Source: Spirochaetota bacterium (lineage in GTDB: Bacteria; Spirochaetota; UBA4802; JAFGDQ01). From it: 46,879 nucleotides of DNA. The position numbers and the translations under genes are program-made. The stretch covers positions 1 to 46,879 of the forward strand of contig JAXHTS010000001.1 of assembly GCA_034190085.1 (NCBI GenBank), written 5' to 3'. How positions within the stretch are numbered: the first letter of the stretch is position 1; each line of letters begins with the position of its first letter. This document shows positions 13,683 to 16,454 of this stretch, piece after piece. A model generated the notes under the pieces. That model did no database searches. It saw only the letters and a list, made by a program, of their open reading frames with translations, and was not told the origin of the DNA.

Positions 13683-14903
13683 ATGAATCCATCAGCGTTA
13701 TCTGACATAAAGGTAGTAGAGTGGAGCGAATCTGTCTCAGGGCCTTATTGCGGGAAGCTTCTTGCTGATTTGGGGGCTGAGGTTATAAAAATTGAAAGGC
13801 CTGGTTTTGGGGACCGATCCAGGAGCTACGGCCCTTTTCCGCAAGACATACCTCACTATGAAAAGAGCGGTCTATTTCTATATCTCAATACCAATAAAAA
13901 AAGTGTAACCTTAGATGTTACAAAAGCGACTGGTGCTGAGATTTTTAGAGAATTAGTAAAATCTGCAGATGTTCTCGTTGAGAACAATCCCCCTAGTTTG
14001 GTTGAAAAGCTATGTTTAAATTTTAAAAATTTAAAAAAGCTTAATAAAAAATTAATTGTAACATCGATTACTCCCTTTGGATATACTGGACCCTATCGAG
14101 ATCACAAGGCATGCGAGCTTACCAGCTTTAATTTAAGCGGTTTAGCATTTACCAATCCTTATGTTGGTGTAGATAATATTGAGGAACAACCACCCTTGAA
14201 GGGGCCACCGCATCAAGGTGAAATTATTGCTGGTTTAGGAGGAGCAATAACCACAATGTCAGCTATTTTTGCATGTAACATATCAGGATTTGGGCAACAC
14301 GTAGACATATCAGAGCAGGAAGCCTTAACCTCTATGATCCGACGAGACCTTGGCCTTTATAATTATGAGGGTATAATTAAGACTAGGATTAAGGGGAGTC
14401 AACCTCAGGTTGAATTTGTGATGGGTCATTGTAAAAATGGTTACTTCTATATGCTTTGTAATACTGACAAGTTCTGGGATGCCTGGGTGGAGCTGATGGA
14501 CAGTCCTGATTGGACAAAAGAAGCCTTTTGCCAGGATCGCGCTTCAAGGCGGGAAAATTGGTATAAGATCAGGCCAAGGATAGAGGAGTGGTCAGAAGGA
14601 CAACTTCTCGAGGATATAGTCAGCGAAGCTCAATCGAGACGCATTCCCTGCATGCCCATCAACACCATTGAAGAATTGTACAAATCTGAACTTTTAAAAG
14701 ATCGAGACTATTTTGTAGAAATTGATCATAAAGAGGCTGGCAAAATAAAATATCCGGGGGCACCTTATAAATTATCACAAACCCCTTGGCATATTAAGTC
14801 TCCTGCTCCTCTTTTGGGTGAACACAATGATAAAATTCTTGGTGGACAACTCGGTTATTCCAGAAAGGATTTAGTAAAGATGAGAGTAGAGGGAGTAATA
14901 TGA
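13683..14903 (+). CDS. CoA-transferase family III (CaiB/BaiF type)
   Basis: 406 aa, close to the family length. The N-terminus has the family signature SGPYCGKLLADLGAEVIKIE followed by GDxxR. Family III enzymes move CoA between acyl-CoA and a free acid, or racemise acyl-CoA, through an aspartate that forms a mixed anhydride. At the equivalent place this protein has HQGEIIAGL, so Glu180 sits where Asp is usual. This is shared, as far as I recall, with some uncharacterised members. The ISGFGQHVDISEQEAL segment that follows is standard. The start has GGAG 10 nt upstream. It is 51 bp after the Ig-repeat lipoprotein gene, but a shared role is not evident. Substrate cannot be predicted. Confidence 0.88.
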   Translation: MNPSALSDIKVVEWSESVSGPYCGKLLADLGAEVIKIERPGFGDRSRSYGPFPQDIPHYEKSGLFLYLNTNKKSVTLDVTKATGAEIFRELVKSADVLVENNPPSLVEKLCLNFKNLKKLNKKLIVTSITPFGYTGPYRDHKACELTSFNLSGLAFTNPYVGVDNIEEQPPLKGPPHQGEIIAGLGGAITTMSAIFACNISGFGQHVDISEQEALTSMIRRDLGLYNYEGIIKTRIKGSQPQVEFVMGHCKNGYFYMLCNTDKFWDAWVELMDSPDWTKEAFCQDRASRRENWYKIRPRIEEWSEGQLLEDIVSEAQSRRIPCMPINTIEELYKSELLKDRDYFVEIDHKEAGKIKYPGAPYKLSQTPWHIKSPAPLLGEHNDKILGGQLGYSRKDLVKMRVEGVI

Positions 14904-15004: not shown

Positions 15005-15262
15005 TTATTGACAAAAAACCAGCCCAGGGCAAGGCAACTGAACTTCCGGTTTTGAAATTGAATTATCCGTGAATAATTCAATACACACAAATCTGCCTGT
15101 GCTCGTCAAGCGGATGCCGATGTTGTTGTACTCGTTATACGGGTCGTTACTGCACCAATTGCCGGCCTGCATTCTATTAGCAAAGTCGTTTCTGCTTCCG
15201 TTGCGAATCACTCGATTCGAACGGCTTATGATGCCATGCCCCTTAATTTGTATTTTAGCAAA
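15005..15262 (-). pseudogene. DGR-type variable region of a C-type-lectin/FGE-fold protein, orphan fragment
   Basis: The minus-strand frame from a stop at 15263-15265 to a stop at 15005 contains SNRVIRNGSR and later NNIGIRL. The block from GS to IGIRL is 31 residues, the same length as the canonical pattern GGSWxxxAxxCRxAxRxxxxPxxRxxxIGFRL. That pattern marks the C-terminal variable region of formylglycine-generating-enzyme-fold proteins targeted by diversity-generating retroelements. GS, an alanine, the central P and the IGxRL end are kept. Upstream there is only about 50 nt of open frame and no start, so the body of the gene is missing. No reverse transcriptase is present in the window. A perfect hairpin lies just downstream (15058-15081). 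Confidence 0.55.
15058..15081 (-). repeat. Perfect hairpin downstream of DGR-like block
   Basis: TTGAATTAT and ATAATTCAA form a 9-bp perfect stem with a 6-nt loop. In minus-strand reading it begins about 26 nt after the IGIRL codons. Functional DGRs carry a hairpin or cruciform shortly after the variable repeat that helps target cDNA integration. The position fits, but the role is inferred. Confidence 0.5.
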
Positions 15263-15782: not shown

Positions 15783-15905
15783 CTATATGTTTACAAAAAG
15801 CCAGTCAAGTTGAGTAAAGACCTTGTTTTTATCCAGCAGTTTGCGGTTTTCATTGGCCAACTGGTCGTTGGCACCCAGAATGTCTTTAAGGATCTTAATC
15901 TCCAT
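15783..15905 (-). pseudogene. hypB: hypB remnant, N-terminal part
   Basis: HypB is a GTPase that delivers nickel to [NiFe]-hydrogenase. The frame from the ATG at 15905 starts MEIKILKDILGANDQ, followed by an ENRKLLDKN block and VF. This is the well-conserved entry of HypB before its P-loop. After VF the reading fails. Shifting frame recovers LNLT, which is how family members continue (VFVLNLxSSPGxGKT), so about 2 nt appear to be deleted. The P-loop and everything beyond it are absent. It follows the hypA remnant by one nucleotide in the usual hypA-hypB order. Confidence 0.72.
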
Positions 15906-16068: not shown

Positions 16069-16454
16069 TCAAAATGCTGGTTTTTGATAAGTTATTGAAT
16101 TTGCTTGCTCAAATCCGTAATATCTTCCGGAAGTATTGGTTTGGGCTATATGAATGAGGTCATCAAGGGAAGAAAAGGAGTCTTTCTTTTGTTTTGCAAA
16201 GATCTGTAACCTATATTCTAGGTGATTCTATATAACCATGTATGCATCTTACTGTCTTCTCAGTAATCATCGATACTGCGCCAAGTTTGCACAAAGGCTT
16301 CTTAGGTAACACACTCTGCATCTTCTATGCTCCCCGTTGGTTGATACGTTAAATTATATATTTTCGTTCCAAATGTGCTACATAAATACTCGACACCCTC
16401 CTCATTATCAGCTTAAAGGTTTTTTATTAATTCTCCTTGAATAAGACTTTTCAT
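16069..16454 (-). pseudogene. Decayed ECF sigma-70 factor
   Basis: From the ATG at 16454 one frame reads as an ECF sigma factor with four in-frame stops. Region 2 is clear: KIYNLTYQPTGSIEDAECVT, stop, EAFVQTWRSIDDY, stop, EDSKMHTWLYRIT, stop, NIGYRSLQNKRKTPF. The first stop follows KNL near the start. After KRKTPF the homologous reading continues in another frame as SLDDLIHIAQ. Region 4, the -35-binding part, is absent. This is clear degeneration, unlike the intact ECF gene at 41045. The second stop (TAA) stands where family members have Gln (CAA). Confidence 0.78.

Follow-up and report, generated by a model that had tools for sequence, protein, structure and literature searches.

A probable relic template repeat of a diversity-generating retroelement, with a covarying spacer hairpin, in a Spirochaetota genome

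Introduction

In diversity-generating retroelements (DGRs), copies diverge from their template at template adenines. A DGR-type repeat that stands alone raises the question of which side of the system it belongs to, the template repeat (TR) or the variable region (VR) of a target gene, and of what has become of its reverse transcriptase (RT). Such a repeat occurs in the window, the whole 46,879-nt stretch of DNA analyzed here, which is the complete contig C1 of assembly G000 (4.27 Mb, 86 contigs, 96% complete). It had originally been predicted to be a VR without its RT, either a leftover or a remotely served target. We argue that positions 15226-15057 of the minus strand are most probably a fossil DGR template locus whose avd and RT genes have been lost, with a target, on a different contig, that is now frozen.

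The repeat and its surroundings

The minus-strand frame at 15005-15262 contains SRSNRVIRNGSRNDFANRMQAGNWCSNDPYNEYNNIGIRLTSTG, in which the predicted RVIRxGS ... P ... NNIGIRL pattern is present with the spacing originally described. The frame comprises only 85 codons from stop to stop, and no formylglycine-generating-enzyme (FGE) domain was found upstream of it; as the upstream sequence is riddled with stops in all three frames, the frame is not part of any gene. The features of the locus are as follows.

15096..15226, minus strand: degenerate DGR template repeat, AGCCGTTCGAATCGAGTG...CGCTTGACGAGCACAGG, bounded by homology to the TRs of genomes G004, G105 and G176 (63% amino acid identity to the G004 TR, and 77% at the DNA level across 142 nt with the hairpin; of 34 template-adenine sites, 25 have A)
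15057..15082, minus strand: spacer hairpin of the TR transcript, with a stem of 10-11 bp and a CACG tetraloop, starting 27-28 nt past the GIR codons
15030..15056, minus strand: rest of the 3' spacer, with partial likeness to relatives (GTTCAG... CCTTGC), a weak match made visually
16210..16379, minus strand: decayed piece of an ECF sigma-factor gene, interrupted by in-frame stops (Pfam Sigma70_r2, E=2.6e-7, 30.7 bits against a cut-off of 24), in the same gap as the TR and given as context only

The TR sits in a 1.8-kb intergenic gap alongside other dead gene pieces, and the unit starts sharply, with no homology upstream of the TR start. A possible N-terminal fragment of HypB (hydrogenase maturation) was also observed at 15800-15905 (minus strand; MEIKILKDILGANDQLANENRKLLDKNKVF), with an NCBIfam match (E=0.0055) far under the family cut-off. 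A DNA search identified no second copy of the element in G000, Rfam returned no match for it, and searches of phage, plasmid and viral contigs gave no credible match.

Homologous elements in related genomes

Among 46 genomes of the order, a strong match was found in one, G004, which belongs to another family; its record was also the only one returned by a contig database search. Across about 65 residues, and with the hairpin region counted in, the two homologues are 62-63% identical in amino acid sequence; their DNA is 77% identical across 142 nt (E=3e-24). The G004 element is an AAC-rich repeat in noncoding DNA; a target gene with a VR lies on its 5' side, and the same hairpin on its 3' side. 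It is clean, despite having no adjacent RT, and adjoins a truncated four-helix-bundle gene whose full-length version in G040 is PF05635, not bAvd. The only RT found in G004 is on contig C53 and has its own, different template: a 574-codon frame (L043, 7531-9252, minus strand) contains both an N-rich, template-like stretch, NAWNVNMNNGNVNNNNKTNNNYVW, and an RT in which IGNLTSQ is present. This locus is a separate DGR, the TR of which overlaps the RT frame. By eye, palindromic attC-like sequences were seen 3' of DGR-type target genes in G040 (L067, contig C5, 700-1000) and G004 (L018, contig C43, 8400-8700); the two regions have a 38-nt conserved stretch in common (L081) and are possibly integron cassettes.

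A phylum-wide search led to two further genomes. The DGR of G105 (contig C160, L124) is complete, comprising a target with a VR, an HRDC-domain gene, an Avd (bAvd/DivGenRetAVD, NF033474, 107 bits), an RT carrying the IGNLTSQ motif and a TR directly 3' of the RT, while in G176 (contig C97, L125) the order is likewise Avd, RT, TR. A TR downstream of the RT defines group 2 in the DiGReF classification (PMC3521204). Both DGRs resemble the window in their homologous TR, identical type of 3' sequence and covarying hairpin, and G105 also in its FGE-fold target; they differ in that bAvd and RT directly precede the TR, whereas the window has neither. The G004 homologue, with its hairpin, shows that the resemblance goes beyond chance, and the original assignment of the repeat to the DGR type, in the FGE/C-type-lectin class, was right. 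Two marks of a template repeat locus, namely a noncoding repeat homologous to the TRs of complete DGRs and a structured 3' spacer in common with them, are found in the window; for a third, retention of adenines at variable sites, the window falls between VRs and intact TRs. Elsewhere, in G045 (L046, contig C53, 7307-7411, minus strand), a template-like repeat follows an RT (RYYYYPYSRGYS); it has TAC where others have AAC, so that its adenines fall mainly at second codon positions.

Template or copy

Adenine comparisons covered the first two positions of each of 35 codons, with Fisher p-values that are nominal in treating bases as independent. As a positive control, the G105 TR was compared with its own VR, revealing changes at 19 of 38 adenines and at 0 of 32 other bases (p=8e-7). 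Within G000, which has eight FGE-domain genes, the closest match to the window fragment is the C-terminus of a 584-residue protein encoded by an intact gene on contig C34 (13890-15644, minus strand); it carries three Big_2 domains and an FGE domain, and its N-terminal sequence looks like a lipoprotein signal. Two adjacent same-strand Big2-FGE genes lie in this region (L044, 13890-17950), only one of which has a VR-type end. Although DNA searching gave a single copy of the repeat in G000, a diverged VR is therefore present on C34.

Relative to the G004 TR, the C34 VR, at 13908-14012 of that contig, is adenine-biased, with changes at 20 of 35 adenines and 2 of 35 other bases (p=5e-6). With the window as template, the counts at codon positions 1 and 2 are 17/30 and 8/40; the wider comparison (A 23/38, non-A 19/79, p=2e-4) is adenine-biased but gives too many non-adenine differences for a cognate pair, and the G004 TR fits far better. 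Since non-adenine mismatches stand at 8/40 for the window and 2/35 for the G004 TR, the window TR in its present form probably did not write the C34 VR. Between the G004 TR and the window, 8 of 35 adenines and 5 of 35 other bases differ, without adenine bias (p=0.5), which points to ordinary erosion and not to mutagenic copying.

At the 34 template-adenine sites, A is kept at 25 in the window, at 13-20 in nine VRs and at 30-34 in three intact TRs. Past the IMH*-like end, the window and the relative's TR read CGAGYACAGG, whereas related VRs, with few exceptions, read CGAGGAC. The intermediate adenine count and the TR-only 3' sequence place the window on the template side, in an eroded state.

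The spacer hairpin

The hairpin predicted downstream of the motif is real, with a perfect stem of 10 bp instead of the 9 bp first reported (inverted repeat 15057-15066/15073-15082), or 11 bp around CACG if the inner U-G pair is counted; this 11-bp form begins 27 nt downstream. In the window, G004, G105 and G176 alike, a 10-bp stem capped by a YAYG tetraloop starts 26-28 nt downstream of the TR. Over these four TRs, 40 of 40 cells are paired and 10 of 10 pairs are kept, 5 of them changed on both sides; the covariation score was reached by 0 of 500 shuffles, support that is good but not overwhelming, as there are only four sequences, two of them near-identical. Eight further DGR TRs that were inspected had no matching hairpin at the equivalent place. 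By MFE, the spacer as a whole folded no better than shuffles (z -0.5), the hairpin alone standing out.

Because the stem covaries across four TRs at a fixed distance, the hairpin is best read as part of the spacer of the template RNA and not as a VR cruciform. Its earlier interpretation as a VR targeting hairpin fails, since the same hairpin follows TRs and not VRs. The VR hairpins of phage DGRs are GC-rich, 7-10 bp long, with a 4-nt GRNA loop, and located downstream (PMC3240598), whereas that of the window is AT-rich and its CACG loop is closed by U-G. Between G000 and G004 the hairpin is identical at 23 of 24 positions, against 106 of 156 (68%) in the remaining element (p=0.003), and this near-constancy may reflect selection until recently, or even now. 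In BPP-1, bRT-Avd is recruited by the folded spacer that lies 3' of the TR (PMC12875486); by analogy, the spirochaete hairpin spacer would play the same recruiting role.

Searches for RT and Avd

The absence of an RT from the window, as originally noted, extends to the genome: RVT_1 had no match in G000 at E<=1, and tblastn with a DGR RT found none, although with an assembly that is 96% complete and in 86 contigs the RT is possibly missing from the data. Matches to RT, avd and HRDC remnants in the window were at chance level only, and tblastn with the bAvd of G105 and G010 gave no credible Avd near the TR. A candidate avd remnant upstream of the TR aligned locally no better than shuffles. As cognate enzymes, the RT of G001 was rejected as group II-intron-like by motif, and that of G004 (C53) for its own N-rich template.

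Proposed history and competing explanations

When the locus was active, the transcript of TR and spacer would have been bound by an Avd-RT complex and copied into cDNA by reverse transcription that was error-prone at adenines; FGE-domain genes would then have received this cDNA at their 3' end. The C34 gene would be one such target, retaining its adenine-scrambled sequence and now frozen. We infer that the window locus was transcribed and once active, and that its RT was lost rather than missed. Against this reading stand the near-constant hairpin, which could mean that selection still acts on it, the clean TR of G004 with no RT next to it and a differently templated RT on C53, and the incomplete assembly.

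Of the alternatives, the one that survives best, although unlikely, is that the window TR still functions as a template for an RT acting in trans from an unassembled replicon, a prophage or the missing part of the genome. The preserved hairpin and the incomplete assembly (96%) are in its favor, as is Thiohalocapsa PB-PSB1, in which incomplete loci are reported to be diversified in trans (PMC10907252). However, at non-adenine bases the C34 VR is closer to a relative's TR than to the window, the template adenines are being lost, and G000 yielded no RT. Slightly less likely still, the TR-spacer unit could persist on its own, still transcribed, as an RNA donor acting in trans for transient RTs carried by prophages or plasmids; if so, in this spirochaete DGR lineage the templates would evolve as modules apart from the RTs, with the preserved hairpin as the handle.

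The original view of a leftover or remote target, in which the repeat is an orphan VR from the 3' end of a lost gene, is improbable. It would account for the FGE C-terminal motif and its spacing and for the partial loss of template adenines, but no upstream coding sequence or protein is attached, the TR-only 3' sequence and spacer hairpin are present, the adenine content (25 of 34 sites) exceeds that of every VR, and the window has AGA where most related VRs encode W, F or C. Very improbable is an ordinary FGE-domain pseudogene fragment with no DGR connection: G000 does have eight FGE-domain genes and the gap holds other pseudogenes, but the conserved unit continues past the gene end to take in the hairpin, it has homologues in noncoding TR loci, and the window-VR differences are adenine-biased. 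Least credible of all is a mutagenized cDNA copy of TR and spacer at an off-target site, which would fit the sharp start without upstream homology and the TGC, AGT and TAC in place of some template AAC codons, but not the differences from the G004 TR, which show no preference for adenines (8/35 vs 5/35, p=0.5); a DNA search found no intact parental TR elsewhere in G000.

Relation to known systems and significance

The DGR of Treponema denticola retains its RT, whereas none was detected in the genome of the window. At the level of class, the window element is like this DGR (TvpA) and its remote targets, which are FGE/C-type-lectin lipoproteins in a spirochaete (PMC10907252). Partial DGRs without an RT have been described in DUSEL4 Nanoarchaeota and called fossils or remote (PMC4372165); those retain target, VR and cis elements, whereas the window retains template and spacer. 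In Pseudogulbenkiania sp. NH8B, distal targets lie beside a strongly mutated RT gene (PMC3521204), likewise a DGR copy without RT function, but that genome has another RT and none was found in G000. Compared with known RT-less DGR pieces, the survivor here is the template with its spacer, and no RT was found to serve it.

Read as a fossil template locus, the window shows a DGR after loss of its enzyme, in which template and target outlast the RT; DGR searches that begin from the RT would miss such loci. The covarying hairpin with a YAYG tetraloop, present in one spirochaete DGR lineage, provides a concrete candidate for the RNA handle of Avd-RT, one that can be tested in the complete elements of G105 and G176.
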